The translations under genes and the position numbers were made by a program. From Eisenbergiella porci (lineage in GTDB: Bacteria; Bacillota; Clostridia; Lachnospirales; Lachnospiraceae), in assembly GCF_009696275.1 (NCBI RefSeq), contig NZ_VUMI01000062.1, forward strand, positions 1 through 33,563: a stretch of DNA of 33,563 nt, read 5' to 3'. Below the pieces are notes generated by a model that was not told where the DNA came from, did no database searches, and saw only the letters and a list, made by a program, of their open reading frames with translations. Numbering within the stretch: position 1 is the stretch's first letter; each line of letters opens with the position of its first letter. This document shows positions 894 through 33,434 of this stretch, in pieces.

Positions 894-1289
894 TTACATC
901 ATCTGACACTCTGCCATAGTAACCGCTTGGTCCTCTGCAGCGAAGTACATATCTGATTCCTCTCTGGTTACCATCAAGATTTCCCCTGCTTCCTTCTCAC
1001 CCATCTGAATCGGTGCAAGATAAGGAATAATCTCTGCACACAACTTCTGATCCGGGCAGGTATTAATAAATCCACCGCAAGTATCCAATATCAGACGGTC
1101 AACCATATCGGTAATTATCATTTTCTCTGCATCATAAAAATGATTGCCAAGGAAATTTGCCATATTCTCTGGTGTTGTAGAGATAAAAAACTCCTGTCGG
1201 TTTCCTCCGTCACTCGGATAAAAATAGGCATATCCAGCCCTTTCTGTATCCAATATCTTTTCTACCATGCTTTTTTCTTCCTCTGCCAT
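894..1289 (-). CDS. ICE-associated hypothetical protein (131 aa)
   Basis: A soluble, acidic 131-residue protein with a GGAGG-type ribosome binding site. Notable segments are E-K-I-L-D-T-E-R-A-G-Y near the start, a central I-I-T-D-M-V-D-R-L-I-L-D-T-C-G-G-F-I-N region, and M-V-T-R-E-E-S-D-M-Y-F near the end. I recognise it only as a protein often found upstream of recombinase genes in Lachnospiraceae ICEs; no function is known to me. Its extreme C-terminus (A-E-C-Q-M-M) is a loose version of the Met-rich tail seen on several transfer-region proteins. It overlaps the end of a 47-codon ORF. Confidence 0.65.
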   Translation of the reverse strand: MAEEEKSMVEKILDTERAGYAYFYPSDGGNRQEFFISTTPENMANFLGNHFYDAEKMIITDMVDRLILDTCGGFINTCPDQKLCAEIIPYLAPIQMGEKEAGEILMVTREESDMYFAAEDQAVTMAECQMM

Positions 1290-13520: not shown

Positions 13521-15317
13521 TTAATCCTCTGTTCTGAGTGCCTGTCTTACCTTGGTTACCGTTTCATTCATCTGTGTCTGCTGCATTCCTCCGTTTCTGG
13601 ATGCAGTGCTTGGCTCCGTGCTTTCCGGCTCCTCATCCATGCAGCACATATATCTGCGGATGATTTCCTCTTCGATTTCCTGCTTGTCTGCATAGGCTAC
13701 CTTTCTTGCCGACTTTTCCTCAATCTCGTATGGCTCCTCGAAGGTAATTCCCCACTTTAGGAACAGTTTCAGTTTTGTTCTCATGGGATGGCTTCCTGTT
13801 TTGGATACGATAAAGTTACCTTTCGGCAGAGATTTTAACTCATCCGGTGTCATCAACGGTCTTTGTATCATCTGGAGAGACTGACTTGGATCATTCTTTC
13901 CCCTGCTGATGGAGCCAGACATGACTGTCTTATTGCCAAGGCTCTTGGACAGCACTTCGGCAGATTCGGAATTAGGAGCGAAACCGCCAAAGATGGTATC
14001 CTGACAGTTATCAATAATGATTTCTGCCCCCTCTTTTCCATAGTTTTTAGTAAGCTGTGCATAGGACTGTATCATGGGTACGATGCTGACTCTTCTGGAA
14101 CGAGAGGCAGAGAACATCATCTCCGCACTTTCAATCTTTGGTATGGTTCCAACTTCATCCCAATAGAAAACCACACGGTTATCCAGCTTTCCACCGTTCT
14201 CATCCGCCATCACAAGGATTTCCCTGTAGAGCTGCTGCAAAATCAGAGAAATAATAAAATACTTGGTATTATCCTCTTCCGGCATCACTAAAAATACCGC
14301 TGTCTTCTGCTTACAAAACATTTCAGCATCGATAGCGGTATCAAAGCACAGTATCTGCTCCAGTTCGGAATCCAAAAAGGAGTTGAGTCTGGAAAGGGCT
14401 GTGGAAAGAACAGACTGCATGGACTGCTCTGCGGTATTTAAAGCTGCCCCGGCAAACCATTTTGCTTTATGGGTATCCGGCAGTTTTGCCATCAGCAACT
14501 GAAACTGATTCTTTCCCTTTACCTTGGATGGCGCCAGTAAATCCTGAATCAGTTTAAACACACTGATGATATGCCTTTTCTCCTTTGGGCAGAATTCTGC
14601 TATTAGCAGAATGACTGCGGTCAGCACACCTTCTGCGGCATCATAGAAAAATGCGTTTTGTCCGTAGCTGGCACTGTCTGCTCCTCCGGAGGATATGATG
14701 GTCTTGGCAGTAATCTTGGCATACTTTTCTGCCTTTGCCTTGGCACTTAAATTGTTATGGTCTGCCAGATACTCATCCATGTACTTGTTTACCAAGTGGA
14801 GCATATTATCGCCATCACTTCTCGTAGGATTTCTTAAATCAATGACTGCGGTATGATACCCATAGTATTTCTTGGCAATTCCTGCATAATTACGATAAAG
14901 GTCACCCTTGGTATCGGTAGTCAGAAAACTCATTCCACAGGCACAGGCATACTCAATGTTTGGGTACAAAAAATGCGCAGTTTTACCCACGCCTGCTGCC
15001 CCTATCATAAGACAATGCACATCTCCGGTATCTACAAGGGCATACAACTTTCCTGCCCTTTCTATGCTACTCAACACAAGTCCCTGTGCTGTAGGCAAGT
15101 TCTCTCCCTGCCTCCATTTCTCCGGCTCATAGGCTACTTCCACATAGGTTTCTTCGATTTCTTTCTTGGTGGCAAACCGGGCGGTTCCATGCTGACCGTC
15201 ACCGACTGTCTTACTCTTGATTCCGTTTAATGTATAATAATGTGCCAGCAGGGATAATCCTCCAATCACAGAAAACATAATTACTCCTGCTGTCAGCAAC
15301 ATCATGACTGGCTGCAT
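13521..15317 (-). CDS. VirD4/TcpA-type coupling ATPase
   Basis: The coupling protein that brings the relaxase-DNA complex to the secretion channel. One membrane segment lies near the N-terminus. Walker A is G-A-A-G-V-G-K-T at about 106-113, and Walker B is F-Y-W-D-E-V-G near the middle. The T4SS-DNA-transfer segment D-T-K-G-D-L-Y-R-N follows Walker A. The open frame extends to 15416, but that would overlap the primase-like gene by 115 bases. The ATG at 15317 has a GGAG upstream and gives 598 residues. The C-terminal 50 residues are low-complexity. It sits downstream of relaxase and primase genes. Confidence 0.9.
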   Translation of the reverse strand: MQPVMMLLTAGVIMFSVIGGLSLLAHYYTLNGIKSKTVGDGQHGTARFATKKEIEETYVEVAYEPEKWRQGENLPTAQGLVLSSIERAGKLYALVDTGDVHCLMIGAAGVGKTAHFLYPNIEYACACGMSFLTTDTKGDLYRNYAGIAKKYYGYHTAVIDLRNPTRSDGDNMLHLVNKYMDEYLADHNNLSAKAKAEKYAKITAKTIISSGGADSASYGQNAFFYDAAEGVLTAVILLIAEFCPKEKRHIISVFKLIQDLLAPSKVKGKNQFQLLMAKLPDTHKAKWFAGAALNTAEQSMQSVLSTALSRLNSFLDSELEQILCFDTAIDAEMFCKQKTAVFLVMPEEDNTKYFIISLILQQLYREILVMADENGGKLDNRVVFYWDEVGTIPKIESAEMMFSASRSRRVSIVPMIQSYAQLTKNYGKEGAEIIIDNCQDTIFGGFAPNSESAEVLSKSLGNKTVMSGSISRGKNDPSQSLQMIQRPLMTPDELKSLPKGNFIVSKTGSHPMRTKLKLFLKWGITFEEPYEIEEKSARKVAYADKQEIEEEIIRRYMCCMDEEPESTEPSTASRNGGMQQTQMNETVTKVRQALRTED

Positions 15318-16831
15318 TCCATCTTCATCTCCTTCCTCTGTACGATTTCCTGTTTTTGATAATCTGTGGTAATAAAAATATGAGCCTTGATACATTCCAT
15401 CGTAAGGCTCATACATTTCTTCACTAACAACTCTTTATTCTCTTTTACGCTTAAATCCCTGTTATCGAATACCGCCATTGCTTCCTCAAAAGCATTCTGC
15501 ATATTCCGAAGTCTGGTTGCTAAATTTCCTTTGTCTCGGTGTGGCCGGTATCTCTTGCACAGATTTTCTAGGATTTCTTCTGCGCTGGTCTGGTGGCCTA
15601 GCTCCTTTCCCTCTTTTTCCATACATCTGACCAGCACTCCGCACAGAAGCATACCGTGACCGTCAAAAGCATCTTCCAGATTCTCCCTTTTCTGTCCTTG
15701 TTTTAAAGAGTTATATATCTCCCCATAATACCGCAGGATATATTCCCTGTTTCCATACTTGCCATCTACACATGCTGTTACTTCTTTTAAGGCATCGGTA
15801 AAGCTGTGACATTCCAATATCTTTGGATGCTCCTCTGCCGGTATTGCCTCCTGACCGTGCAGATGTTTTAAATCTTCATTCCAATCCTTATAGGTTGATT
15901 GTAGACTTCGAATGTTAGCATATCCTTTTGATACTAAAATCTCAGCAAGTCTGCCACAGGCTTCTATGCCTGCCGCGTCATGGTCTAAGCATAAAATAAT
16001 CTCTTGCAGGTAGGGATGGTCTTTTAACATTCCAAGCATGGCATGTTCCGCTACTCCATTCAGCACAATGTAACTGTTCTCCTGCCAGTTTTTCGGATAC
16101 AGCGTTAAAAAGGAAAGCAGGTCAATGGGAGCCTCAAACACATAAAGTTTCTTCCCTTTGCCTGCATATCCAAACCCATAGGACGGATTGGAACCTTCTT
16201 CATTGATTCGGAAACTCTTTCCGTCCGAGTAGGTTCCCTTTTTATGAATGTGCCGGATAGTTCCATCCTTATCCACTCCTGCAAAAACAGCATTGTGATG
16301 GTCTTCCGACTCATACAGGGTTCCCTGCTTTGCAAAGTAAGAAATCACATCCCGACTGATATATCTTTTCTGCATAAGATACGCATAGACTCTTTTCATG
16401 TTTTCATATTTCTTTGGGATGATTAATTCTTTCTTTTCCTTCTCAGGCTCCTCCACATCCTGTCCGGCTTGCGCTGTACTTTTCTCCTGTTTTCTCTTGG
16501 ATGTATTCGTACCACCATTTCCATGCACAGACCTATGATTTTTTCCTGCTCCATGAATGACCTCCCCGGTTTCTCCATTTAACAGATACGTCACTGCCTC
16601 CGGAAAATTCATTCCAAAGAATTCCTGCATGAAATCAATGGCATGGCTTCCTGTCTGCTGGCTGTGACGATACCACCGGTTTCCCCGAAAGGTTACACTT
16701 TTATGTCTTTTCCAGCGCCATTCATTCCCGGACTTTTCCACCTCTTCATTCATATCACGCAGAATATTTAATATGGGGACTGCATTGGCTCTCTCCTTCT
16801 GTTCCTCCGTAAAATAAATAAAATCTCCCAT
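15302..16831 (-). CDS. DUF3991/TOPRIM primase-like protein
   Basis: A 509-residue protein with an N-terminal DUF3991-like region (residues about 15-90; W-R-W-K-R-H, R-G-N-R-W-Y-R-H-S, G-S-H-A-I-D-F). A low-complexity linker follows, then a TOPRIM domain with V-F-E-A-P-I-D-L-L-S and L-C-L-D-H-D-A-A-G as the metal-binding Glu and Asp motifs. No CHC2 zinc-finger cysteines are seen. Such proteins are common beside ICE relaxases and are thought to prime complementary-strand synthesis in the recipient. It begins 14 bases after the relaxase stop and its end overlaps the VirD4 start by 16 bases. Confidence 0.85.
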   Translation of the reverse strand: MGDFIYFTEEQKERANAVPILNILRDMNEEVEKSGNEWRWKRHKSVTFRGNRWYRHSQQTGSHAIDFMQEFFGMNFPEAVTYLLNGETGEVIHGAGKNHRSVHGNGGTNTSKRKQEKSTAQAGQDVEEPEKEKKELIIPKKYENMKRVYAYLMQKRYISRDVISYFAKQGTLYESEDHHNAVFAGVDKDGTIRHIHKKGTYSDGKSFRINEEGSNPSYGFGYAGKGKKLYVFEAPIDLLSFLTLYPKNWQENSYIVLNGVAEHAMLGMLKDHPYLQEIILCLDHDAAGIEACGRLAEILVSKGYANIRSLQSTYKDWNEDLKHLHGQEAIPAEEHPKILECHSFTDALKEVTACVDGKYGNREYILRYYGEIYNSLKQGQKRENLEDAFDGHGMLLCGVLVRCMEKEGKELGHQTSAEEILENLCKRYRPHRDKGNLATRLRNMQNAFEEAMAVFDNRDLSVKENKELLVKKCMSLTMECIKAHIFITTDYQKQEIVQRKEMKMECSQS

Positions 16832-16845: not shown

Positions 16846-19671
16846 CTACTGCGTCTGTACCATTTCTTCTCTATCATCCTCAGCATGACCTTGGGCAATC
16901 TTCTTCTGCTTGATTTTCCGTGCCATCTTACGATCCACGCCGCCTCTGCCGCCTTTTCTTCTTCCTGCCACATCTTCTTCCACAATTTTTTCCAAGTGAT
17001 GAAGAAGCCTTGTGGCCATAAGCAACAGGTCCGGGTGATACCCTTCTCCCCAATGCTCCAAAAAATAAACAGCGTACACATTCCCCTGTTCCGCTGCTAA
17101 TCTAAAATATTCGTATGCCTTTTCTCTGTCCTGTTCTACATCCTTCCCTATCAGGTATAACTTGCCAAGAACATACTGAGCATATTGGTTTCCGTTTTCT
17201 GCTGCCTCTGTCAAAAGTTTCAACGCAAGAGACACATTTTTCTCCACACCTTCTCCAGTCAGATACAACCTGCCTAACCGATACATGGCATATTCGTGAT
17301 GCCGGGATGCCGCCAGTGACAAATACTTTACCGCTTTTGCCATATCCCGATACTCCTTTGACAGATAAATACTAGCCAACCTGTATTGTGCATAGGCATT
17401 TTCCTGTTCTGCCGACTGTTCCAGATAATAAATTGCCTTTTCCATATCCCTGGCAATCAAGGTTCCCTCCGCAAACAATTTTCCCAAGGCATAAGCGGCA
17501 AAGGGATTTCCCTGCCCTGCAATCTCTTCCAGACAGTTCATGGCATATTTGATTTTTGCATAGTCTGGTTCTATATCCGAATGTTCTTCTATTTTCTTCT
17601 GCTCCTGTCTGATATACATTTTGGCTAACTGATATCTGGCATGGGCATTATTGTATCCGGCAGCCTTTTTGAAATAATGCTCTGCCTTTTCCTCACTCGG
17701 CTCCGTACCTTTTCCGTGCAGATACATACAGCCTATCCGATACATAAGGTTATCATCCCTGGACTCCTTTTCCATCTTCAGAAAACCAAGAAAAGCAACT
17801 CGGAAACTTTTCTCTGCCAAATCTGCATTCTTTTCTGTTCCCCTGCCGCTTTCATATAATTTTCCAAGTTCATAGGATGCATAGGGATTTCCTTTCTGAT
17901 GGGATTTTCGGAATAGGTGGAATGCTGTTTCATCGTCCTGCTCCACACCTTTTCCCTGCAAATAAAACATTCCAAGAGAATACTCTGCATACTTGTGGTT
18001 CTTATTTACTGCCATTTGAAACCACTTGGCTGCCATTGCTTCATCTGCCTCTGTGCCTAATCCGTACTGATACATCTTACCGATACGGTATTCCAGATAG
18101 GCTTTCTCTTTTTTCTGCTCCAGTTCCTGAAATCCTGCCAGAGCAGACCGGTACCACTTATTTGATTCTTCTTTATTTGCATCAACAAAGATTCCCTTTT
18201 CATACATTTTACCCATGTCATGCATGGCATAGGCATTTCCGTTCTCTGCCTCCTCCTTCATCAATTCATAAGCAGCTTCTTCATCCGGCTCCATCTCCTT
18301 GGTACCGTACAGATAGGTCCTGGCTTCTTTGTAGGTATCAGTCCATTCGGCATACACGCTTCTTTCTTTCGGGGTTGTACCCTCTGAGGTCGTTCTATCT
18401 GGAGTTGTTTCCTCTATGGTTGCCTCTTCCCCGATATCCTCTCTGCTGTTATCTTCCGGCACAATTACGATTTCTCTAACGTCTGCATCCTCTTCTGCCA
18501 TTTCATCTTCTAATATTTCCTCCACTGTAATATCTGACTCTTCCGTATACAGATAGCCCTCTCCAAACCTTACCGCCTCTTTGATTACCATGTTCTTGAT
18601 GCTTTTAAATTCTTTTCTGGCAGACAGCGGCAGAACTTCTAATGGTGTATCCTTATAGTGTCCGACAATCTCCTGCTGGCTCTCCATCCACTTCTCATAG
18701 CATTCCGCCACCAGCTTCTCCTTTGCCAGTTCGTCCACGATATCATTTACAATGGCTTTCACATCCGCTTTTAGATATCCATAGACCTTTTTGCCTCCTG
18801 TATTCATAAGTCTTCTTGACAGCAGTTCCATTTTTTCTGCAATCGCCCTGTTATGTATCATTCCTGACTGCATCTGGCCAAGTAAATAAAGCAGGCTCTT
18901 TTCTGCCTGCTCCTTCAACTTATTCCTCTGCTGTGTTTTCTTTTCATAGATGCTCATAAAATCCTGACGAAAAATATCGTGTGCAAATGCAGACCTCATG
19001 GTTTCGATGCCTTTTTCTGTCAGATATCCTTCGGTTGGCTTAGTGGAATACACCACCAGATGTACATGTGGATGATGAGACTCATTGTGAAAGGCTGCAT
19101 ACCATTTCAGATTCCTGCTGTCTATCTTATAATTCTCTGCCAGAAGCTGCACCCGACTACGGAGCAGAGCCTGCCACTGTGCTGCATTGTCATACCCAAG
19201 TCTTTCTGCATCCTCTCTGCGCAGGCTGATGACATTCGTCCAGATCACTCCTGGATGATTTGCCACCTCCTCTGCCACCTTGGAAAGCACCACCGCCTCC
19301 CCTTCATTAGAAAACAGACCGTGAGTACCTATTTTTTCTACTCTCGGTCTGTTCGCCAGATAATCAATATAATTTTTCTTTTTTGCTATAATGTCCAGAT
19401 TGTTTTCCAATGCCTGCGTGATAAATTCCGAGGCATTCTCTCTGGTAGGTTTTTGAAGATACTCATAATACTCATGCATGCGGTCTGCATCGGGAATCTT
19501 TGACAAGATGTCTGCTATTAATTCTTTCTGCTTTATGGTTGCCGGCAGTAAAGACATTGTGCTGTCTACCTTTTCCACACCCTCACGGGTACCAATGTAA
19601 TTCATGTAATTGGAAAGGTGGGATGGTGGAGCATTTTTTAAGTAGTTGCAACGTAAAATTAACTTAGGCAT
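16846..19671 (-). CDS. MobP3-like relaxase fused to Sel1 repeats
   Basis: A 941-residue protein. Residues 1 to about 260 are a relaxase domain: the histidine cluster H-N-E-S-H-H-P-H-V-H-L-V-V-Y has H195, H199-H200, H202 and H204, fitting the HUH metal site of MobP-type relaxases. Tyr22 or Tyr25 in N-Y-M-N-Y-I-G-T-R-E-G is the likely nicking residue. A helical region to about 400 and an acidic linker follow. Then come about ten Sel1-like repeats to about residue 870 (pattern A-Y-x-L-G-x-x-Y-x-x-G), and a basic tail rich in Lys/Arg. It nicks oriT and pilots the strand; Sel1 repeats usually bind proteins. It overlaps the DUF4238-like gene by eight bases. Confidence 0.88.
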   Translation of the reverse strand: MPKLILRCNYLKNAPPSHLSNYMNYIGTREGVEKVDSTMSLLPATIKQKELIADILSKIPDADRMHEYYEYLQKPTRENASEFITQALENNLDIIAKKKNYIDYLANRPRVEKIGTHGLFSNEGEAVVLSKVAEEVANHPGVIWTNVISLRREDAERLGYDNAAQWQALLRSRVQLLAENYKIDSRNLKWYAAFHNESHHPHVHLVVYSTKPTEGYLTEKGIETMRSAFAHDIFRQDFMSIYEKKTQQRNKLKEQAEKSLLYLLGQMQSGMIHNRAIAEKMELLSRRLMNTGGKKVYGYLKADVKAIVNDIVDELAKEKLVAECYEKWMESQQEIVGHYKDTPLEVLPLSARKEFKSIKNMVIKEAVRFGEGYLYTEESDITVEEILEDEMAEEDADVREIVIVPEDNSREDIGEEATIEETTPDRTTSEGTTPKERSVYAEWTDTYKEARTYLYGTKEMEPDEEAAYELMKEEAENGNAYAMHDMGKMYEKGIFVDANKEESNKWYRSALAGFQELEQKKEKAYLEYRIGKMYQYGLGTEADEAMAAKWFQMAVNKNHKYAEYSLGMFYLQGKGVEQDDETAFHLFRKSHQKGNPYASYELGKLYESGRGTEKNADLAEKSFRVAFLGFLKMEKESRDDNLMYRIGCMYLHGKGTEPSEEKAEHYFKKAAGYNNAHARYQLAKMYIRQEQKKIEEHSDIEPDYAKIKYAMNCLEEIAGQGNPFAAYALGKLFAEGTLIARDMEKAIYYLEQSAEQENAYAQYRLASIYLSKEYRDMAKAVKYLSLAASRHHEYAMYRLGRLYLTGEGVEKNVSLALKLLTEAAENGNQYAQYVLGKLYLIGKDVEQDREKAYEYFRLAAEQGNVYAVYFLEHWGEGYHPDLLLMATRLLHHLEKIVEEDVAGRRKGGRGGVDRKMARKIKQKKIAQGHAEDDREEMVQTQ

Positions 19672-20965: not shown

Positions 20966-20980
20966 TCTCATCCTCCTTCT

Positions 20981-21106
20981 TTACTCTTCGCAGATGTCTA
21001 CGATATGCTCATAGGCTTTCTCGACACTTCGTGTTCCTGCAAATAATTCTAATACTTTTATAGTCCCGTATCGGTAGTGGTGCGCACTCTTACCAAACAG
21101 ACACAT
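20981..21106 (-). CDS. 41-residue ORF with methyltransferase-like motif I
   Basis: A frame beginning M-C-L-F-G-K-S-A-H-H-Y-R-Y-G and continuing K-V-L-E-L-F-A-G-T-R-S-V-E-K-A-Y-E. The second part looks like the AdoMet-binding motif I at the start of cytosine methyltransferases (x-V-L-x-L-F-A-G), but the frame ends 15 residues later at E-E. It ends nine bases before the RHH start region. No good ribosome binding site is visible. It could be a gene remnant or a real small protein; the resemblance may be chance. Confidence 0.35.
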   Translation of the reverse strand: MCLFGKSAHHYRYGTIKVLELFAGTRSVEKAYEHIVDICEE

Positions 21107-21582
21107 CTGCTGGGACTACTTTTCCTTTCTTTTTTCTTCTGCCTGCAAGCATTTTAGTGAAAGGCATAACTTCAAGTTCCCACAAAGCCTTTCAATTCGT
21201 GAAAACAATAAAAACAGGCATAACAATTTCAAAATTTACGAAAAAGTTATGCCATACCACAAATCTCCCAACGGCTCTGCCGGTGGGTGTTTGACGGGTT
21301 TTGCCGCCCTAAAGCGGCATAACCCCTTTAACCTGCACTATTTTCGATCCTAGTTTTACAGCCCTAAATTCCCCGGTTTACAGGCTTTATAATGCTCCTT
21401 AAAGCTGCCATTTCCGGACATTTCCGTTACCTTTCTTCAAATCGGCTCAAACAGGGCAGAATGAGTGCTGGTCGGTCACTTTATCCACTTTTGCCAAACG
21501 ATGGCACAAATCGGCTCACGAACGCTCACACGGGGGATTTGCTTTCTCCTACCCCGGCGTTGCAACCGATTTTCCCCTCTGG
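21107..21582. other. Repeat-rich non-coding region, candidate oriT
   Basis: About 475 bases without a supported gene, next to the RHH and relaxase genes. The 8-mer GGCATAAC occurs three times in one orientation (21163, 21217, 21316) and once inverted (21246-21253); the 21217 and 21246 copies form an inverted repeat with a 21-base spacer. A hairpin at 21267-21287 (CCCAACGGC/GCCGGTGGG, one mismatch, TCT loop) and GCCGC-CCTAAA-GCGGC near 21303-21318 follow. Iteron-like repeats plus hairpins beside a relaxase gene are the usual look of an origin of transfer. The nick site is not identified. Confidence 0.5.
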
Positions 21583-21840
21583 TTACTCATTCTGAGCAGA
21601 CATTCCGGCAGATGTGCCAGTGCTTTTTGCAGTATTTTTGTTGCTTTTCTTAATGGCTGCAGGCACATCTCCTCTGCTGTCAATGTATTCTCTCACTGCC
21701 TGGGGAACATATTTTTCATACATTTTGCCCAGCACATCGTTCATTTCAGACTCAAAGTCTGCGTCCTTCTTGCCCATGTACTGCTTGATTGCGTTCAGCT
21801 TTTCCTCTTCATATTTGATGGTTACTACTGCCTGTTTCAT
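21583..21840 (-). CDS. Small DUF6103-like protein
   Basis: An 85-residue protein: K-L-N-A-I-K-Q-Y-M-G-K-K-D-A-D, then L-G-K-M-Y-E-K-Y-V-P-Q-A-V-R-E-Y-I, and a Lys/Ser/Thr-rich tail. It resembles the small helical proteins I recall as DUF6103, and shares the Y-E-K-x-V-P-Q-x-V-R-x-[YF] core with the 23774-24145 gene, so the two are paralogues. Helical, soluble, possibly dimeric; function unknown. The downstream candidate oriT begins right after its stop. Confidence 0.6.
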   Translation of the reverse strand: MKQAVVTIKYEEEKLNAIKQYMGKKDADFESEMNDVLGKMYEKYVPQAVREYIDSRGDVPAAIKKSNKNTAKSTGTSAGMSAQNE

Positions 21841-21873
21841 GTTCTCTTACCTCCATTTTTATGTATTTTCTCA

Positions 21874-22809
21874 TTACATCTGCTGAGTCATTCCCATATC
21901 CTGCCCCTGCATATCATCCAGTTTGGACAACGTCTGCTCCTGACAATCGAATAAATATATATCTGCTGTCAATACATGTTCCGGGCGAATTCTCGTTTTA
22001 TAAATGTACTCCACCAGCTCTTTCAGTTCATCCACATCCTTAATCTCATCGTTTTTCAAAAGGACACACTCATGCACCGATAAAGGAATCACCAGCATAT
22101 CTGTTCCAAATTTCTTGGCAATTTCACTCATTGCCTTGCTGTCAAACATATATGCAGCTCCGTAAAATCTCTCCGGATTGGAAAGCATATACATGGTCGC
22201 ATTCCTTCCATACTCCGGCAGTTTACTAACATCAAACTCTGCCTCTACCATGTCATGAACATCCGACAACTGATAGGGAAAATGCTGCTCCATATTGTGC
22301 CAAGCAGTTTCACGCAAGGTATTTTCATCAATTCCCCACATATCCAAATGAGAATTCTGTATCTGTATAACTCCTTCTCCATCTTCCCCCAGACTTACCT
22401 TTACATGATAAGTCAGTGCAAAGTCCTCCTTGATTTCATGGGGAACATCCTGCAGCAGTTTTCGGTTTCTTGCCGCATTGCACACAGACACACCGATACT
22501 GTCCTTTACCCTTTCATATGCAAAATCTTCCGCAGTAATATTAATATCCGGTCTGAGACTGTTTAAATAGGTATCCGCTATATATTCCATAACATCACCC
22601 ATAGGCATCCCGAACAAATGATGTACATAAAATTGTTCCAAGTAAATGGACGGTGTGGTTTTATGCTCTCCGACTATGCACAAAGCACTCAAAGAAATAT
22701 CATTGTTCTTAGTTGCCTGCCTAACGGATACCTCGGCACCCTCATATTCTTGTGGCAGATACGCTTTGATATTGTCAGCCACATACTTCTTAAATTCATC
22801 AAACTGCAT
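21874..22809 (-). CDS. DUF5688-family protein
   Basis: A 311-residue soluble protein of the ICE-associated DUF5688 type: Y-L-E-Q-F-Y-V-H-H-L-F-G-M near the middle of the first half, L-S-N-P-E-R-F-Y-G-A-A-Y-M-F, and L-V-I-P-L-S-V-H-E-C-V-L-L. The last motif recurs in the neighbouring paralogue as I-I-M-P-S-S-V-H-E-S-I. Function unknown. It ends M-G-M-T-Q-Q-M, one of the shared Met tails. It follows its paralogue by 22 bases. Confidence 0.7.
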   Translation of the reverse strand: MQFDEFKKYVADNIKAYLPQEYEGAEVSVRQATKNNDISLSALCIVGEHKTTPSIYLEQFYVHHLFGMPMGDVMEYIADTYLNSLRPDINITAEDFAYERVKDSIGVSVCNAARNRKLLQDVPHEIKEDFALTYHVKVSLGEDGEGVIQIQNSHLDMWGIDENTLRETAWHNMEQHFPYQLSDVHDMVEAEFDVSKLPEYGRNATMYMLSNPERFYGAAYMFDSKAMSEIAKKFGTDMLVIPLSVHECVLLKNDEIKDVDELKELVEYIYKTRIRPEHVLTADIYLFDCQEQTLSKLDDMQGQDMGMTQQM

Positions 22810-22831
22810 ACTTATTATCTCCTTCTTCCGT

Positions 22832-23761
22832 TCACATTTCTTGTGTCATACCATTGGTTTCATTCTGACTCTGGGACTCCAAATAATTTATCCAAGAGTC
22901 TCTTTCCACGCCAAACAAACCATCATGGGAGAGAATATCTTCTTTGGTGTCCAGCATCGCATCTGCTCCGTCCTCATACAGTTTAAAAAGTGGTACGTCT
23001 GCATCTAGCAATTCCATTGCCCTTTCTTTGGTAAGCGGCAGCATGCCATCCCAAACATATCCATAAGTGTGCATCTCTTCCATACTTATCTTATCCGGCA
23101 TCAGTATTTCTTCATGCTCCGGTACCTGCGCCTTCGACAACGTATGGCTGTCCTTATCGTATCGGTAAATCTCCCCTGACAGGATTTCCTCTTCTCTCAA
23201 CTTTGTCTGGTTCACGGAATTTACCAAATCCTTTGCTTTCCGGATATCCATTCCATGTTCCTCACAATAAACAATTGATTCATGCACAGAGGAAGGCATA
23301 ATAATGAGGTTGCCGCCCATTTTATTTGCTACCTTCTGCATGGTTTCATCATCAAACATATAGATGGCACCATTGTCATTCATCCGGTTGGTAATAACAA
23401 ACATATCCAGTAAAGGACTGATTCCTAATGACACCGGATTATCATTTTCCAAATGGTTTCTTCCAAAGTCAGCACGGCAGACATCCAGCAAATCAATCAT
23501 AATCGGAGGTCGTTTTACCATTGTATTCGTCCATGCGTCACTCTTTAATGTGTCTGCATCCACTCCCCAATGCTCTATCTGTTCCTCCGTTACCAAGTCG
23601 CAGTCTCTTTTAAAATCTGCATCATAACCACTAAGCCGATACACCAAAGCCAAGTCTTCCCTGCACTCATAAAGCACATTTTTCGGAAGTTCCTCCAGCT
23701 TCTTGGCATTATATACTTCTACAAATAAGCGTTCCTTGATATCATCCGTATATAAATTCAT
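22832..23761 (-). CDS. DUF5688-family paralogue with C-terminal extension
   Basis: About 309 residues from the ATG at 23761, which has better spacing from GGAGG than the GTG at 23767. Compared with the 21874-22809 paralogue the N-terminus is shorter, beginning near the L-x-x-V-P-type segment, and an extra domain of about 70 residues is present (Y-V-W-D-G-M-L-P-L-T, A-M-E-L-L-D-A-D-V-P-L-F-K-L-Y, S-H-D-G-L-F-G-V). It shares Y-M-F-D-[DS], [LI]-[VI]-[IM]-P-[LS]-S-V-H-E and W-G-[IV]-D. It ends N-G-M-T-Q-E-M. Function unknown. Confidence 0.65.
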   Translation of the reverse strand: MNLYTDDIKERLFVEVYNAKKLEELPKNVLYECREDLALVYRLSGYDADFKRDCDLVTEEQIEHWGVDADTLKSDAWTNTMVKRPPIMIDLLDVCRADFGRNHLENDNPVSLGISPLLDMFVITNRMNDNGAIYMFDDETMQKVANKMGGNLIIMPSSVHESIVYCEEHGMDIRKAKDLVNSVNQTKLREEEILSGEIYRYDKDSHTLSKAQVPEHEEILMPDKISMEEMHTYGYVWDGMLPLTKERAMELLDADVPLFKLYEDGADAMLDTKEDILSHDGLFGVERDSWINYLESQSQNETNGMTQEM

Positions 23762-23773
23762 CGCCACGCCCTC

Positions 23774-24145
23774 CTACATACTCATTACCATTCCACCATC
23801 TTGCTCCTGCTCCGGTTCCTGTACTCCCTGCTCCTCCGGCTGCGCTACTTCGCTATTTTCCTGCTCCTGAACAGTTTCCCTTGCAGCCTGCTGTCTGTTT
23901 CCTCGTCTTCCCTGACCTCTCCCCTGTCTTCCGTTTCCGACATCGTTCTGGGCAGGCTCCTCTGTCTGGGGAGTCATCTTACTTTCCACAAATTTTCGCA
24001 CCTGCTGGGGAACACTTTTTTCATAAGTTTTATCCAGATGCTCCTTTAACACCTTTTCTACAGTGGTATCATTCTCCCGCAAGAAAAACTCCAAAGCCTC
24101 CATTTTCACTTCCGGAAACCCAATCTTGATTTCTTTCTCTGCCAT
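23774..24145 (-). CDS. DUF6103-like protein with low-complexity tail
   Basis: A 123-residue protein. Residues 1 to about 55 match the DUF6103-like core (K-T-Y-E-K-S-V-P-Q-Q-V-R-K-F-V) of the 21583-21840 gene. Residues 65-115 are a Gly/Arg/Gln/Glu low-complexity linker. It ends G-G-M-V-M-S-M. The G-R-G-Q-G-R-R-G-N-R stretch could bind nucleic acid. Function unknown. It ends 12 bases before the next gene's ATG, with the stop inside TAGGAGG. Confidence 0.6.
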   Translation of the reverse strand: MAEKEIKIGFPEVKMEALEFFLRENDTTVEKVLKEHLDKTYEKSVPQQVRKFVESKMTPQTEEPAQNDVGNGRQGRGQGRRGNRQQAARETVQEQENSEVAQPEEQGVQEPEQEQDGGMVMSM

Positions 24146-24157
24146 TTCTCTCTCCTC

Positions 24158-24499
24158 CTACATATTCATCTGCATGCCAGCGGTCTGCGCTTCCTGCATG
24201 TCCTGATACTGACGGATGATTTCCTGTGCGGATGGTACAAAAGCGGAATATCTTGCATAAGACGAACCCTCGCTTTCCACCAGCACTCCCTCATCCATTC
24301 CCTCACCGGTTACCAACAGACAGTGCCATACACCGTCCTTTTCACACATCAAATCCACGTTTTCTTTAATAAAATCATAATCCTTCATGAGATGCTGTGT
24401 GAAATAAGCGTACTGCTCTGCCGGTAAGGTAATAACCTTTTCCACCTGAAATTCTTGAGTTTCAATCTCCGGCTCTTTTCTCATAAAAACTGCTCTCAT
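24158..24499 (-). CDS. Small ICE hypothetical protein (DUF6329-like)
   Basis: A 113-residue soluble protein with V-I-T-L-P-A-E-Q-Y-A-Y-F, D-Y-D-F-I-K-E-N-V-D-L-M, and W-H-C-L-L-V-T-G-E-G-M-D-E-G-V-L-V-E-S-E-G. I recall this as a family common in Clostridia ICEs (possibly DUF6329; name uncertain). It ends A-G-M-Q-M-N-M. No known activity. It lies after the NlpC/P60 gene and a weak terminator, and 12 bases before the next gene. Confidence 0.6.
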   Translation of the reverse strand: MRAVFMRKEPEIETQEFQVEKVITLPAEQYAYFTQHLMKDYDFIKENVDLMCEKDGVWHCLLVTGEGMDEGVLVESEGSSYARYSAFVPSAQEIIRQYQDMQEAQTAGMQMNM

Positions 24500-24517
24500 T
24501 CTGCCTCCTTCCTGTGC

Positions 24518-24540
24518 AAAAAACAGATGCCTACGGCATC
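24518..24540 (-). terminator. Weak attenuator after the NlpC/P60 gene
   Basis: GATGCC (24526-24531) pairs with GGCATC (24535-24540) around TAC and is followed by TGTTTTTT on the minus strand. The six-pair stem is short, so partial termination between channel genes and downstream accessory genes is more likely than a full stop. Confidence 0.45.
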
Positions 24541-24547
24541 ACAAAAA

Positions 24548-25633
24548 CTATTGCGGTCTGCCATACAGCACCTGCTTATCACTGTCAAATAAATTTCGAT
24601 ATACTACTTTTCCTTTGGAGTAGGATGCATCCACTACCATTCCCTCTCCGGCATATACCCCCACATGGGTGATATTCATAAACCTTCCGTTTGGCTTATA
24701 ACTCCAGAACACAAGGTCCCCCGGCTGTAAATCTTCCTTGGCTATGGTCAGATTATTTTCCACCAGATACCTTCCCTGCTCTGCGGCAGTTCCGGGTATG
24801 GTGATGCCAACCTGTCTGTAACACCACATGGTCAGGTAACTGCAATCCGTATAATCTCCTTTTCCACGATAGGTCTGGGAATATGGATGTCCTAATCGGG
24901 ACATGGCAAGTTCTACTACTTTTCCTCCCACCTCACTTGCAGGCAGGTCATAATAGGTAACATCACCGCCTCCATTCCAGTTGCTCCAGTCATCAAAGCC
25001 ATCTCCTTCCATCGGTGCTGTGGTATTATATTTCGCCAGATGCCATACATTCACAGCGTTGGATTGCTGTTCATAGGTTGCCGCTACTCCATAGTGGCTT
25101 TTTATCCGTTCAAACAATTCCACCTTGTCCGTAATGGCAATGGATGCCTGATAGGTTTCCACTTTTTCTGTTCCATCTTCCTCTGTGACCGTTCTGGTAC
25201 GCTCCTCAAAATTCACAAAGGATTCTGCAAACCGTTTATAGTCTGCTTCCGTAAGCCAGAACCAGTCCTCGCCGAAATACAGAGAGTAAAACACCGCCTT
25301 GACCAGATACCTGTCCTGAACATCTCCCTCTGCCACTGCATCAATCTCATCCATTGCCGCATCAATCTGCCCGAAGCTTTGCTGCATTTTATAAATGTAT
25401 TCTTTGTAGTCAGCAGGCATACTGATAGGGACAAAACCTCCGTGAAACGCAAGTCTTACCGCCGCCCTGTTATGATCTGCCGCTGCGGACGCAAGGTTTA
25501 AGATACACACGATGGCAAGAATGAAGGGAATACATATCCCCACAAGCACAGATGCGATTCCAGTCCAAGCCTTTTTATTCGTTCCTACCGCAATGGCGGC
25601 TTTGGCTATCATTGCAGCAGTTGTTGGTTCCAT
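24548..25633 (-). CDS. NlpC/P60 peptidoglycan hydrolase (VirB1-like)
   Basis: A 361-residue membrane-anchored hydrolase. A hydrophobic segment lies at about 25-48, a middle domain of about 180 residues follows, and an NlpC/P60 domain covers about 235-361. Catalytic residues are Cys264 (T-D-C-S-Y), His323 (T-H-V-G-V-Y) and probably Asp335 (V-V-D-A-S). Such enzymes open the cell wall for the conjugation channel. It overlaps the cyclotransferase gene by 25 bases. The order amidoligase, cyclotransferase, hydrolase suggests coordinated wall-peptide chemistry. Confidence 0.88.
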   Translation of the reverse strand: MEPTTAAMIAKAAIAVGTNKKAWTGIASVLVGICIPFILAIVCILNLASAAADHNRAAVRLAFHGGFVPISMPADYKEYIYKMQQSFGQIDAAMDEIDAVAEGDVQDRYLVKAVFYSLYFGEDWFWLTEADYKRFAESFVNFEERTRTVTEEDGTEKVETYQASIAITDKVELFERIKSHYGVAATYEQQSNAVNVWHLAKYNTTAPMEGDGFDDWSNWNGGGDVTYYDLPASEVGGKVVELAMSRLGHPYSQTYRGKGDYTDCSYLTMWCYRQVGITIPGTAAEQGRYLVENNLTIAKEDLQPGDLVFWSYKPNGRFMNITHVGVYAGEGMVVDASYSKGKVVYRNLFDSDKQVLYGRPQ

Positions 25634-26121
25634 GCCTGCTCCTCCATTCCTTCATTCTCATACCGCTTTTCCACCACATCCTTGCAATAGGACACACTTT
25701 CAAGCAATCGGTTTACATCAAACCCTGCCTCTAAATATCCCGCTGTAATGGTTTCCAGATAGCGTATGGATGGCTTTCCAATCTCATGCCCTTCGTTCAT
25801 GGTATAAGCCATAATGGATTCACATCCGTCCTCCGTCTGCACCTCCAAGTCCACCTTGCCATAGAGCCTTGGATAGCCTTCATACATATCCAGATTTCTT
25901 TCATCCTCCGATCCAATCTCCCAAATCAGAACAGGAACGCTGGCACCGGCTTTCGGCTCCACTGTGGCTACCGCAGATAAGCTGCTTCCCCTAAATAACA
26001 GTTCATGGTCTTTGATTTCTCCCTTCCCGATTACCTTTGCGGTGGGACATCTTTTTGCCATCTGTCCCAGATTTAAATTGGAACCATAGGCAATATATTT
26101 CTTTCTTTTCTCCATTTTCAC
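25609..26121 (-). CDS. Gamma-glutamylcyclotransferase-like protein
   Basis: A 170-residue GGCT-fold protein. The Y-G-S-N motif at residues 12-15 forms the substrate pocket, and Glu81 in D-M-Y-E-G-Y-P is the expected catalytic acid. The fold releases 5-oxoproline from gamma-glutamyl amines. It lies between an amidoligase and a peptidoglycan hydrolase, with eight bases to the former and a 25-base overlap with the latter. Amidoligase plus GGCT pairs are a recognised gene association predicted to make and remove isopeptide-like bonds. The substrate is not shown. Confidence 0.8.
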   Translation of the reverse strand: MKMEKRKKYIAYGSNLNLGQMAKRCPTAKVIGKGEIKDHELLFRGSSLSAVATVEPKAGASVPVLIWEIGSEDERNLDMYEGYPRLYGKVDLEVQTEDGCESIMAYTMNEGHEIGKPSIRYLETITAGYLEAGFDVNRLLESVSYCKDVVEKRYENEGMEEQAWNQQLLQ

Positions 26122-26129
26122 ATTACCTC

Positions 26130-27167
26130 CTATAACGACAGATTCATGCCCTGCTCCTGGCTTTCCTCTGCCTCCTCAACACTTCCCGTTACTTCCTCTG
26201 ACTGCATTGCTTCCTCCGCTGCCTGTAGCGACTCTTCCTTTTCCTTTTTGGCTTTCAGCCTCTCCTTTTGTTTCTCTGCCTGTGCAGGGTCCTTCCATGC
26301 AATTCCGCCCTCCAGATTTTCCAATAAGAACTTTCTTGCAGTCTTAAACTCATCCCCTATCATGCCAAGACGTAAGAGCCAAGTGCGAAAGGTATACTTT
26401 TCGTTGGTGCTGGTGGTCTTTCTGGTGGCGGCACAGGTCTGGTTTAATGCCTGCCCGGAAATGGCAAGACAAAACTGTATGTAGGTCTTTACTTTCCCGG
26501 CATGAGTGGTGGAGTTAAACAGACGAAACTCAATGGTTCCCTTCTGGAACACACTGTGCAGGTTCAGACAATGGTAGCGGCTGTCATGGTAATGCCTGTG
26601 GCTGCCATCGGCTCCCTTGTACCAGATGTTACTGACCTCTGCCAATGTCTTTGGCTTTTTCCGATTCAGACTCTGTAAAAACTCCTCTTCCACCTTCCTA
26701 CAATACCTATGCTCACGGTTTACATCCACCTGCAAAGCCTTATAAATCAAATCCTCTTTGCTGTACATGATGTTGGTGATATTCCGGAGCGTTCTGGCAT
26801 TATGGGGTGCGGCATTCACATGAACATGAATGCCACACTTTTCCCCTGCTATGGCTCCTGCATGACGGAGCTGCCTTACAATCTCCTGAATGGTTGGAAT
26901 GTCTGCATATTCACAGATGGGAGATACAAACTCTACCTTGTACTCATCTCCGGCATGGCTTCCATCCTTTTTCTTTGCCACAATACTGGAATCATACATA
27001 ACCTTCCACTTTCTTCCCTGATTGTCATAGACACTGTATTCCTCATAATAACCGCCATCATATTGATAACTGTTACCCAAGTATTTGGAGATAACCCCCG
27101 CCGCTTTCTGTCTGGTCAGTCCGGTCAGTTCGATTTCAATCCCGAATTTCTGCTCCCGCATATCCAT
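26130..27167 (-). CDS. Amidoligase-family enzyme
   Basis: A 345-residue protein of the Amidoligase_2 (COOH-NH2 ligase) type, related in fold to glutamine synthetase. F-G-I-E-I-E-L-T-G (8-16) is the metal/ATP-binding start, G-I-H-V-H-V-N-A near 112-119 and E-F-R-L-F-N-S-T further on supply the rest of the active site. The last 60 residues are Glu/Ala/Lys-rich and end E-Q-G-M-N-L-S-L. It starts two bases after the VirB4 stop and precedes the GGCT gene. It probably joins an amine to a carboxylate on a wall or peptide substrate. Confidence 0.82.
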   Translation of the reverse strand: MDMREQKFGIEIELTGLTRQKAAGVISKYLGNSYQYDGGYYEEYSVYDNQGRKWKVMYDSSIVAKKKDGSHAGDEYKVEFVSPICEYADIPTIQEIVRQLRHAGAIAGEKCGIHVHVNAAPHNARTLRNITNIMYSKEDLIYKALQVDVNREHRYCRKVEEEFLQSLNRKKPKTLAEVSNIWYKGADGSHRHYHDSRYHCLNLHSVFQKGTIEFRLFNSTTHAGKVKTYIQFCLAISGQALNQTCAATRKTTSTNEKYTFRTWLLRLGMIGDEFKTARKFLLENLEGGIAWKDPAQAEKQKERLKAKKEKEESLQAAEEAMQSEEVTGSVEEAEESQEQGMNLSL

Positions 27168-27169
27168 AC

Positions 27170-29005
27170 TTAACGACCTCCGGCACTTCCAAACAGCTTC
27201 TCCTTATACTCCGGTGCGTGTACCATCAGATTGTATCTTTCGTTACCGCACTTATAGAGGCACACTCCACGCTGGGGATAACGGATGAGATTGTACTCAC
27301 TCTTTTCAAGCTGCAAGGTATCGATGTAAAACTTGGCATCGATGTTACCGGCATTGAATAAAAAGGCATGTGTCGGGATGGAGAACAGCGGTTTTGTATA
27401 TTCACGGATACCATCAATGTTGAAGTCCTCCAGATTCTGGCTGGCAAGGATGACCGCACTGTCCTTCTTACGCACACGTTTCATAAAGTTTCGGATGTAC
27501 TCTACTGCTGTCAGATTGGTTAAGAACAGATAAAACTCATCGATGCTGGCGGCAGTATGACCATTGGTAAGCAGTTCATTGGACATGTAGGAAAGGATGT
27601 TAAATAACATAGCATCCTTCACATTTCTGCTTGCCTGAAGCAACCCTTTTACACCGAAGGTCAAGAAGCTGCTGTCCGTGATGTTGGTATGTCCGTTAAA
27701 AAATTTGGACTCCGCCCCTTTACACATGGAGTGAAGTCCTAAACAGATTTCCTGCAATAATTCTGCGGTATACAATTGTTTTTTCTTGGCATCGTAATGC
27801 TTATACTCCTCTTCCATCAAATCATAAAGGTCTGAAAGGATAGGATAATCGGCAGGTGTCAGCTTACTAAAGTCTGTATCATCCCTGATATTCCACTTTT
27901 CATACAGCTTCCCTAACATGATTTCAATGGTATCAATCTGGCTGTCCGTGAAATGCTTGTAGGTACGAAAGAAGTCCTTTAAGAAAGAAATGTGCTGGCT
28001 TAACTTGGAGGAACAGCGGAATGTATAAGGAGCCTCTGTATCTTCAGGACTTCCGTTCTCATCCCATGTTTTCGGCTCCAGTACGTTAATGATAAATTCG
28101 CCACTCATAAGGTCCACAAAGCATCCGCCCAGATTGTTTGTCAGGTCGATGTATTCATGCTCCGGATCAAGGCAGATGACCTTCATGCCGGACTCCCTGA
28201 GAATGGTTAATATCAGTTTTAACAGATAGGACTTACCCTGTCCGGAGTTACCAAGGATTAGGATATTGGCATTGGTCTTGTCATCGGCTCTCTGGTTAAA
28301 GTCCACAATCACGTTGCTGCCAAACTTATCTCTGCCGATGTAAAAACCATTCTTATCCGTCTTGCCGGAATAATTAAAAGGAAACAGATTGGCCACGCTG
28401 GAGGCAGGGAGCGCGCGTTCAAACTGCTCACGGAACACATTTCTGCCTGCCGGATGGACACACATAAATCCCTGCTTCTGTCTAAGTAGGAGCTTGTCCA
28501 CATTTAACTTGGAACGGATTAACTCTGTTAACACCTCCGTCTGCAACAGTTTTAATTTCTCCATATCCGGCGCAGATAATTCGATAAACACAGCGGTGTG
28601 TAAAAGTGGCTCCCTGTTCCTATGCATGGTGGAAATAATTGTAGTCACGTCCTGTAAGTTGCTTGCCGCAGTCACCGTTTCCTGCAAGTTTTCTGTATTC
28701 CCCTGCTTCATGCGGTTCTTATTGGCTGCATTGCTGATAATCTTTTTCTCCTCTGCCGGTGTCACCTGTCTGGTGTAGATTCTAAGGGTAACGCCATCCT
28801 TTTCCCCAAGGTGTCTTAAAATCGCCTGCTCATCCGTAGCTGTCGGATACTCCCGGAGCGCCCAGACACTGCGGTATGTATTTCCACAGATATAGTGGTC
28901 CGTATAAAACTGGATAACGGATGGGGCAATCATATCCAAATAGCCTTTCAACTTTGCCTCGGTTTCTGACTGCATTACCGTGTTTTTCTTTCTGTTTTTA
29001 TTCAT
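27170..29005 (-). CDS. VirB4-type conjugation ATPase
   Basis: A 611-residue ATPase that energises the T4SS channel. Walker A is G-N-S-G-Q-G-K-S (252-259), followed by L-D-P-E-H-E-Y, and Walker B is near S-I-D-E-F-Y. A later A-S-Q-N-L-E-D-F motif is typical. Residues 1-240 are the VirB4/TrbE N-terminal region, so the protein is complete though shorter than the usual 800. It overlaps the TrsD-like gene by eight bases and abuts the amidoligase. It has no membrane segment and is expected at the inner face of the membrane. Confidence 0.92.
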   Translation of the reverse strand: MNKNRKKNTVMQSETEAKLKGYLDMIAPSVIQFYTDHYICGNTYRSVWALREYPTATDEQAILRHLGEKDGVTLRIYTRQVTPAEEKKIISNAANKNRMKQGNTENLQETVTAASNLQDVTTIISTMHRNREPLLHTAVFIELSAPDMEKLKLLQTEVLTELIRSKLNVDKLLLRQKQGFMCVHPAGRNVFREQFERALPASSVANLFPFNYSGKTDKNGFYIGRDKFGSNVIVDFNQRADDKTNANILILGNSGQGKSYLLKLILTILRESGMKVICLDPEHEYIDLTNNLGGCFVDLMSGEFIINVLEPKTWDENGSPEDTEAPYTFRCSSKLSQHISFLKDFFRTYKHFTDSQIDTIEIMLGKLYEKWNIRDDTDFSKLTPADYPILSDLYDLMEEEYKHYDAKKKQLYTAELLQEICLGLHSMCKGAESKFFNGHTNITDSSFLTFGVKGLLQASRNVKDAMLFNILSYMSNELLTNGHTAASIDEFYLFLTNLTAVEYIRNFMKRVRKKDSAVILASQNLEDFNIDGIREYTKPLFSIPTHAFLFNAGNIDAKFYIDTLQLEKSEYNLIRYPQRGVCLYKCGNERYNLMVHAPEYKEKLFGSAGGR

Positions 29006-29570: not shown

Positions 29571-29832
29571 CCGGTGTGTACCTCCATTCGTAATGCTGCT
29601 GGTCTAATAAAAAATAAGCACAGGCATAGCGGATAAAATCCATAATGGTGGTATCCTCTACCTGTATGGTTAAAAATGCATATGCTCCTGCAATGACAAG
29701 CGGAAACCATATCCCTGCGTATGCAAACGCAAACACAGAAAACAAAATAATAATTCCAATAATGGCTAAGTCTTTTAACTCCCACAGCCACATGGTTGCC
29801 TTTGCTTTCAAGTTATCGGGATAGATATACAT
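29563..29832 (-). CDS. PrgI/VirB3-like membrane protein
   Basis: An 89-residue protein with two membrane helices at about 20-40 and 44-60 (I-I-G-I-I-I-L-F-S-V-F-A-F-A-Y-A and F-P-L-V-I-A-G-A-Y-A-F-L). It begins M-Y-I-Y-P-D-N-L-K-A-K and ends H-Y-E-W-R-Y-T-P-D-E. This is the PrgI/VirB3 architecture that links VirB4 to the membrane channel. It overlaps the methyltransferase by 20 bases and the TrsD-like gene by eight. Confidence 0.85.
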   Translation of the reverse strand: MYIYPDNLKAKATMWLWELKDLAIIGIIILFSVFAFAYAGIWFPLVIAGAYAFLTIQVEDTTIMDFIRYACAYFLLDQQHYEWRYTPDE

Positions 29833-31345: not shown

Positions 31346-31363
31346 TCCGATACCATCACCGCC

Positions 31364-32224: not shown

Positions 32225-32254
32225 ATAACACCACCTTCCTGCAGACTTCCTGCT

Positions 32255-32695
32255 TTACGGACTCATCTGCTGGCTCTCGAAATCCTGCGACTGTACCATT
32301 GCCATATCCTGAAAAACGGACAGATAATTTTCCACTCCGGCTGCCAGCTTCTGATAATCTGCATTTGTCGGATGAAACACATACCAGTCACTTTTTCCAT
32401 TGTCTGTCCAGATATGAGGGTTCACACCTTCTCTGAAATTAGGGTTGCTTACTTTCGGTTTGCCCCAAATATCTGTAAAGCGCAGAAGCATACTGTCTAC
32501 CACACCCTCTTTTCTGTTGATAATGGAAGTCTTCAGCCCTGCATAATGGTCATGAACTCCAAGCGTTACAAACTCAATCCTTGCACGCAAGTCCTCACTG
32601 ATAGTGCCATAACACATGCGCCCCACATACTTCTGGTCTTTCAGTATGTTACTGTTTCCCATAATCTTCTTTAATTCCGATTCAAAAAAATTCAT
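32255..32695 (-). CDS. Transfer-region hypothetical protein (146 aa)
   Basis: A soluble 146-residue protein with Y-V-G-R-M-C-Y-G, L-G-V-H-D-H-Y-A-G-L-K and P-H-I-W-T-D-N-G. It lies between the pilin and VirB6 genes with an excellent ribosome binding site. I recognise it only as a conserved hypothetical of this ICE type. The C-terminus (F-E-S-Q-Q-M-S-P) is weakly like the shared Met tail. Function unknown. Confidence 0.65.
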   Translation of the reverse strand: MNFFESELKKIMGNSNILKDQKYVGRMCYGTISEDLRARIEFVTLGVHDHYAGLKTSIINRKEGVVDSMLLRFTDIWGKPKVSNPNFREGVNPHIWTDNGKSDWYVFHPTNADYQKLAAGVENYLSVFQDMAMVQSQDFESQQMSP

Positions 32696-32707
32696 CTCCT
32701 CTGCCTC

Positions 32708-33134: not shown

Positions 33135-33434
33135 TTACATATCCATCTGCGTGGTCGGTGTCTGCTCCTGAAGCAGTTCTGCAACCTCATATACATTTGG
33201 ATTTTCATAAAACCTTAAATCCCCTCTATAACCCACTTTTAAATGGCTGAATTCTTCTCCCAGCTTCAGCAAAGCCTCCGGTGCTTCTTCTGGGAATTCC
33301 TGATTCCATATCACCCATTCTCCGTTCTGATACCGGGGCGCCAGTTCTAAGATGACATAGTCCTCCGGCACAAATTTGGGATACTGCCTTGGAAATCCGT
33401 TTGCATCATAATATAATTTCCCCTCCTGCATCAC
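33135..33434 (-). pseudogene. Small ICE protein, probably 5'-truncated
   Basis: A 99-residue frame with Y-Y-D-A-N-G-F-P-R-Q-Y-P-K-F-V-P-E-D-Y-V-I-L-E-L-A and a C-terminus T-T-Q-M-D-M. It starts at GTG-ATG directly at a hairpin, with a TGA four codons upstream and no ribosome binding site. This suggests that the original 5' end was replaced by a mobile-element end. The remaining protein looks intact, so it may be a short derivative. Family not recognised. Confidence 0.5.

Follow-up and report, generated by a model that had tools for sequence, protein, structure and literature searches.

The stretch of DNA analysed here, referred to as the window, comprises the 33,563 nucleotides of contig NZ_VUMI01000062.1 (positions 1 to 33,563, forward strand) of Eisenbergiella porci (RefSeq assembly GCF_009696275.1) and carries a conjugative element with its own type IV secretion system (T4SS). 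Several proteins of this element, which belong to different families, end in a short methionine-rich tail. A first-pass annotation made from the letters of the window had described five such hexapeptides of the form G-M-x-(M/L/Q)-x-(M/L), and all five were confirmed in the sequence, each directly 5' of the stop codon. These tails and the looser ends found in the same window are as follows.

21877..21894, minus strand: tail GMTQQM of a DUF5688 protein (21874-22809, Pfam); relatives end GMTQQM, GMVQGM and GMIQEM
22835..22852, minus strand: tail GMTQEM of a second DUF5688 protein (22832-23761, Pfam)
23777..23794, minus strand: tail GMVMSM of a long DUF6103 protein (23774-24145, Pfam); long relatives end GGMSMSM, NTMSMGM and GGMSLSM, short ones are without the tail
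24161..24178, minus strand: tail GMQMNM of a DUF6329 protein (24158-24499, Pfam)
26133..26150, minus strand: tail GMNLSL of an amidoligase (26130-27167, Pfam Amidoligase_2); relatives end GMNMTM, AFTMSM and TIALAM
33138..33155, minus strand: tail TTQMDM of the protein 33135-33434, the 3' part of a gene; relatives end GMDMTMQL, AMQMDM and EIQMVM
897..914, minus strand: end AECQMM of the protein 894-1289, the sole member of its family
32255..32695, minus strand: protein of 146 amino acids with the degenerate end QQMSP; relatives end GMGMGM, GMSM and GMQQMP

Membership of the protein 894-1289 is doubtful as no tailed relative was seen, and the tail is present on several relatives of 32255-32695. 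The two DUF5688 proteins had been taken for the only homologous pair; this was mistaken, as 23774-24145 and 21583-21840 are both DUF6103 proteins, the shorter of which ends AGMSAQNE and is untagged. The wider point of that claim, that common descent does not explain the tails, was borne out by the 38 BLAST families that the tagged proteins span, and common descent was rejected. A restriction of the tag to G-M was likewise rejected, the ends AFTMSM, TIALAM, PTMSM, FEMRMA and TVMSM being found among the relatives.

The fair tests of the pattern lie outside the window, because it was the window that suggested it. Genes were called with a simple purpose-made open reading frame (ORF) caller, which added spurious ORFs in all sets, and a protein was scored as tailed if it had at least two Met in its last six residues. 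A contig scan of genomes with the amidoligase as query yielded 74 loci. To avoid bias from a tagged query, genomes were also selected by VirB4 only; 15 of 391 matched, and 20 stretches were sampled from 13 of these (G000, whose copy is the window, and G439 were not included). The lineage set (E, 85 loci) consisted of the window, 64 of the 74 amidoligase loci and the 20 VirB4-picked stretches. The control sets were other VirD4-type elements (C1, 46 loci), chromosomal loci (C2, 33 loci) and amidoligase loci outside the lineage (10 loci); L113 belongs to no set. Redundancy was removed at 70% in these four sets only, and counts for L207-L227 are raw.

Tailed proteins made up 96/1003 of the non-redundant proteins in E as against 10/825 in C1 (Fisher p 4e-16), 3/539 in C2 (p 2e-15) and 0/161 in the amidoligase loci outside the lineage (p 6e-7). 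The exact hexapeptide form given above was found in 21/1003 proteins of E and in 0/1525 of the controls. Within the window itself, 6/41 ORFs were tailed (five tails and the protein 894-1289) compared to 3/539 chromosomal proteins (Fisher p 6e-6), and 5/41 carried the exact form as against 0/1525 control proteins. Elements chosen by VirB4 alone gave 40/429 raw tailed ORFs (23 stretches) and five further faecal or IMG/VR contigs gave 11/105. After removal of the amidoligase family and the window from E, 78/957 proteins remained tailed, of which about five would be due to chance at the C2 rate; these represent 36 families, of which 13 have at least two members. Over the whole lineage 14 of the 38 tagged families have two or more non-redundant tagged members, and a few of the 38 would be expected by chance at the 3/539 background. 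Among the lineage loci that are 15 kb or longer, 52/53 have a tailed ORF and 45/53 have two or more. Only 1/27 DUF5688 proteins from outside the lineage was tailed (30 loci were taken, three of which gave no usable ORF). The check called for by the first-pass annotation, on relatives and on the chromosome, came out in favour of the pattern it had described: the tail is conserved in homologues within one T4SS lineage and is almost absent outside it.

The tag consists of an acidic or Gln-rich linker followed by alternating Met or hydrophobic residues at the extreme C-terminus. Among the 96 tailed proteins Met occurs at positions -1 (59), -3 (47) and -5 (43), as compared to 23 at -2 and 25 at -4, with Gly, Ser and Thr common between the Met positions. 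The last residue is Met in 59, Leu in 12 and Ala in 3; position -6 is mostly Gly (25), Ser (16) or Met (15). A Gln/Glu-rich stretch had been said to precede the tail, and Glu and Gln are indeed enriched at -9 to -12, while Lys and Arg are unenriched at -1 to -8. The last six residues hold 212 Met in total, where the composition of residues -60 to -7 would predict 17, a figure which describes shape only as the proteins were selected for Met. Monomer models had low confidence on the tails (last blocks 52 and 34), consistent with a free linear motif.

Carriers of the tag were further assessed with a held-out-family profile, whose training left out the family under test, and with the threshold set at the 99th percentile of C2 (1% background). 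Scores above threshold were obtained for the amidoligase (17/21), DUF6329 (11/16), the 146-amino-acid family (9/10), ArdA-like proteins (6/7), DUF5688 (7/8), DUF7768 (7/10), DUF6103 (10/35), relaxase (7/32), primase (5/22) and GGACT (4/23) families. The relaxase family is therefore enriched for the tag though most relaxases score low. The VirB4, NlpC/P60, RHH, VirB6, methyltransferase, Maff2-like and VirD4 families together gave 0/130, VirD4 alone 0/10; the labels VirB6, PrgI, RHH and Maff2-like are those of the first-pass annotation or are assumed. VirD4, VirB4 and the relaxase were named by matches to protein-family models. The corresponding genes of the window are listed below.

13521..15416, minus strand: VirD4-like coupling protein of the CD1115 family (NCBIfam NF045973, 264.8 bits against a cut-off of 250)
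15302..16831, minus strand: TOPRIM-type primase; window end EMKMECSQS, relatives end FEMRMA, QEMKLSM and FTMTM
16846..19671, minus strand: MobP3 relaxase (NCBIfam MobP3, over the curated cut-off); window end EEMVQTQ, no clean tag
27170..29005, minus strand: VirB4-like ATPase, the untagged lineage marker; nearest models Mbov_0397 and CD1110, below their cut-offs

PrgI, also a machinery protein, gave 2/15. The earlier statement that relaxase and primase lack the tag is true of this window only and fails in relatives, some of which have relaxases ending EQTMSL, QGLKM and QGMKLEL. The window VirD4 has a tag-like GGMQQTQM about 17 residues upstream of its own C-terminus. VirB4 is apparently split into two genes, 28998-29570 representing the N-terminal part and 27170-29005 the remainder of the VirB4_plasma model.

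Tailed proteins in other elements match ArdA, LPD28, YodL, DUF3849, SpoVG and RhuM as well as AbiEii, HipA_C, D12 methylase, Fic and HEPN, whereas 8 of 20 tailed or nearly tailed representatives searched against Pfam were unmatched at E 0.01. Polyvalent-type domains (ArdA, ArdC-N, YodL, LPD) were matched by only some of the tagged families. Tagged ArdA, YodL, LPD28, SpoVG, Fic and DNA methylase proteins are plausible recipient-side cargo. ArdA was tabulated separately (64 rows, including duplicates from overlapping loci and close relatives): 11/15 rows on lineage loci have a Met tail, many of them closely related, and no such tail is present in the five short ArdA rows that end GIFEIVY. Eight more rows with two Met are on loci not flagged as lineage. 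Of these, three come from G257:C180, which has a lineage VirB4, and one from G000:C122; a further one has the acidic end EEEMEM and three are T4SS-unassigned. The ArdA proteins of G201 and G270 end DEMEV, DDMEF and EEEMEM, and the VirD4 of their elements is 59% identical to the VirD4 of L151, a member of the second lineage described below.

In nine elements whose VirD4 proteins form a separate cluster, acidic ends such as DMEL, ENEMEL, EDLEI and DDFEL are seen instead. Such ends were found in 17/208 of their proteins as compared to 3/539 in C2 and 7/617 in a 37-locus VirD4 cluster, and in 18/213 from 13 later loci (p 4e-8); among these later loci L207-L213, which are not flanks of the discovery elements, gave 12/141, and L214-L219 are flanks. 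Acidic-ended proteins match DUF3991/TOPRIM, RadC, ToxN and DUF4314, and one of 750 amino acids combines ArdC-N, peptidase and YodL domains. At locus L274 a relaxase-domain protein ends STEELDEMEF and its neighbours end EETDEMEV, EDDMEF and EEEMEM. Genome G000, from which the window comes, carries both lineages: the window has 6 Met and 0 acidic ends in 41 ORFs, whereas the two acidic-lineage elements have 0 and 9 in 65 ORFs. The same contrast is seen weakly in G273 (3 Met and 1 acidic versus 1 and 2) and G263 (3 and 0 versus 0 and 1); G316 and G195 had no acidic match and are uninformative on this contrast. Used as a query, the acidic-lineage VirD4 found no relative among viral contigs, and scans of plasmid records returned two and one distant relatives.

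A further kind of end was noticed at L276, L278, L279, L282 and L283, where accessory proteins near ArdA end in a Lys-rich stretch followed by DLEV, DISL or ALEV, with NDLEV at the end of three adjacent ORFs in L279. Lys-rich DLEV/DISL ends occur in 9/141 ORFs of the seven loci that prompted the pattern and in 0/617 of the VirD4-picked loci of the 37-locus cluster, which cover mostly machinery genes. These ends are possibly a third tag.

The Met tag tracks the T4SS lineage better than it tracks the host or the protein family, with exceptions, and the simplest reader is therefore a T4SS component encoded by the element. It is in our judgement fairly probable that the tail is a C-terminal recruitment tag by which the element's own T4SS takes up cargo for the recipient cell. 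A flexible acidic or Gln-rich linker would present hydrophobic side chains, mostly Met, at -1, -3 and -5, and this end would be bound by the coupling complex of the element, most likely by VirD4 of the CD1115 family or by a VirD4-bound partner. We infer that the tagged anti-restriction, DNA-modifying and polyvalent-type proteins, the primase and sometimes the relaxase would cross the channel alongside the DNA and then act in the recipient. With its own tag for each T4SS lineage, cohabiting elements would send only their own cargo. A broader proposal, that VirD4-type elements of Firmicutes use lineage-specific C-terminal address tags (Met, acidic phi-Glu and perhaps Lys-rich DLEV) on many unrelated proteins, so that conjugation is also protein injection with the cargo of each element kept apart, is put forward tentatively, as a possibility that falls somewhat short of being probable.

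Several observations weigh against the finding or against recruitment for transfer. The 37-locus VirD4 cluster is without any tag by these measures, and having a tag is therefore not general. Most lineage relaxases (25/32) fail to exceed the threshold, and the window relaxase is tagless in sequence. PrgI, a machinery protein, has members that score. A clean tail is missing from the window GGACT protein (NQQLLQ) and from 32255-32695. Tailless ArdA proteins, with the ends LGQQML, GGIKFE, ISLSME and ESMEVS, occur on contigs that also carry a lineage VirB4, while at L257 an ArdA with a Met-rich end has no VirD4 within the 40 kb read around it. The acidic pattern, moreover, was composed after some of its first-scored loci had been viewed.

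The same distribution data would fit docking of the tail in the donor, with the T4SS, the relaxosome or an element-encoded chaperone as its partner, for assembly or regulation and not as a translocation signal. Such docking would accommodate the lack of a strong tag on most relaxases, which are the obligate substrates; recipient-useful functions (ArdA, LPD28, YodL, methylase) are nevertheless enriched in the cargo and some relaxases and primases are tagged, and we regard donor docking as rather unlikely. Short C-terminal hydrophobic motifs with acidic linkers are known to bind partners in replication and repair, such as the sliding clamp, and the primase and relaxase are among the carriers, so the tail might serve such a partner after excision or arrival. 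Clamp-binding motifs, however, open with Gln, for which position -6, occupied mainly by G, S and M, shows no preference, and a host partner shared by two lineages fits poorly with their different tags in the same genome, which leaves this reading improbable. The first-pass annotation had offered the T4SS, a chaperone or a protease as readers of the tail; the comparison favours the T4SS, and a host protease or host chaperone is disfavoured because the two T4SS lineages that share this genome carry different tags. Hydrophobic C-termini can act as degrons, and toxins and regulators whose life might be shortened are among the carriers. Nonetheless the tail is rare on chromosomal proteins (3/539) and ends in Met or Leu, unlike ssrA-type tags, which end Ala-Ala. 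A host degron is thus a quite improbable reading, and it was rejected as the main explanation on account of the two tags within one genome.

Two further readings can be given very little weight. The tail might be a substrate site of the element's amidoligase, as the two co-occur in the window and at most loci of the lineage; the amidoligase was itself the query that brought in many of these loci. In G457, G296 and G173, however, there is no amidoligase match genome-wide and tailed ORFs are still present (L198 with 3, L197 with 1, L206 with 4 and L220 with 2); on this ground the amidoligase was rejected as the reader, a role that seems very remote. G234 was left uncounted, its stretch L199 being 7 kb long with no tailed ORF and a single short amidoligase match once the limit was relaxed. 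Three of the window tails abut TAGGAGG, which might suggest that a DNA-level effect, for instance the ribosome-binding site of the next gene, shapes the last codons. The tail codons for Gly, Ser, Thr, Gln and Glu are nevertheless used as in gene bodies, and the next called same-strand gene lies within 30 bases for 56 of the 96 tailed proteins, at 31-100 for 18, and beyond or nowhere for 22. What is conserved is the protein and not the DNA; the first-pass annotation was right to dismiss the ribosome-binding site, and a DNA-level explanation, now rejected, is almost negligible.

The proposed recruitment through the C-terminus has counterparts in Gram-negative systems. Dot/Icm (type IVB) effector signals are described as a C-terminal Glu-rich E-block with hydrophobic last residues, i.e. 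an acidic upstream stretch and a hydrophobic end on unrelated proteins, read there by the coupling complex (PMC12981334). The enrichment of Glu and Gln at -9 to -12 and of Met and Leu at -1 is E-block-like. Dot/Icm is a Gram-negative effector system, however, while the tag here is Met-alternating, has Gln beside Glu and sits on Gram-positive conjugative cargo; the VirD4 belongs to the CD1115 family and the VirB4 comes closest to models of Gram-positive integrative and conjugative element types (adaptors were not searched for). The resemblance is one of working and not of membership. The C-terminal signals of VirB/VirD4 (type IVA) systems, thought to be recognised by VirD4, are reported to be positively charged (PMC12981334), unlike the hydrophobic tag with its acidic or Gln-rich linker. 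The F-type relaxase TraI is reported to have internal translocation signals, TSA and TSB, for coupling-protein recognition, and F plasmids also send other proteins into recipients (PMC8406263, PMC12624023); TSA and TSB are internal domains, not a short C-terminal tag. Iyer and colleagues (2017) predicted that polyvalent proteins are delivered by T4SSs and named Tn1549-like elements (PMC5512222). The kinds of cargo are shared (ArdC-N, YodL and LPD domains, methylase-helicase), but the excerpted text of that article suggests an N-terminal ArdC-N header for delivery and mentions no C-terminal tag. A search of titles and abstract starts, with subscription journals and bioRxiv outside its scope, found no description of such a tag. 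C-terminal T4SS signals are already known in Gram-negative systems; as such a signal, a Met-rich tag on the cargo of Gram-positive elements would be new. Effector translocation by Gram-positive T4SSs is called a long-standing question in a 2025 review (PMC12857230). If recruitment for transfer is true, the element proteins that enter recipients could be listed from sequence alone, DUF5688, DUF6103, DUF6329 and unnamed families would gain candidate roles, and a handle on the separation of cargo between co-resident elements would be available.

Other features of the window were recorded. The block 4176-13025 holds cargo genes which, by eye, we take to be an ABC ATPase-like protein, four membrane proteins and a sensor kinase/response regulator-like pair; the four membrane proteins fall into one family. 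Rfam gave no match in 20900-33563 of the window or in L273. GGACT-family relatives of 25609-26121 often end KWW (LFGFGGLKWW, LFGMKWW) in place of the Met tag, perhaps as a variant of it. No PDB fold match reached E 0.001 for the 146-amino-acid family or for that of 33135-33434; the top PDB matches of the latter, to Tpt1/KptA and DarT (E 0.011 and worse, TM about 0.35 to 0.42), are a weak hint of an ADP-ribosyltransferase-like fold.

The window protein 33135-33434 has 99 amino acids, against 154-168 in its homologues, and corresponds to the 3' part of the gene. A matching 5' part was found at a contig end of the same genome (L273:1-300, on G000:C122). The break falls at the same codon in the two parts, and an insertion may therefore lie between them. 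Further along the same contig (L273:9246-15739) lie two SpoVG-family proteins, with the ends GMSMGM and MDMTGM, and an ArdA-like protein with the end GMNMSC; G000:C122 is probably the continuation of the window's element.

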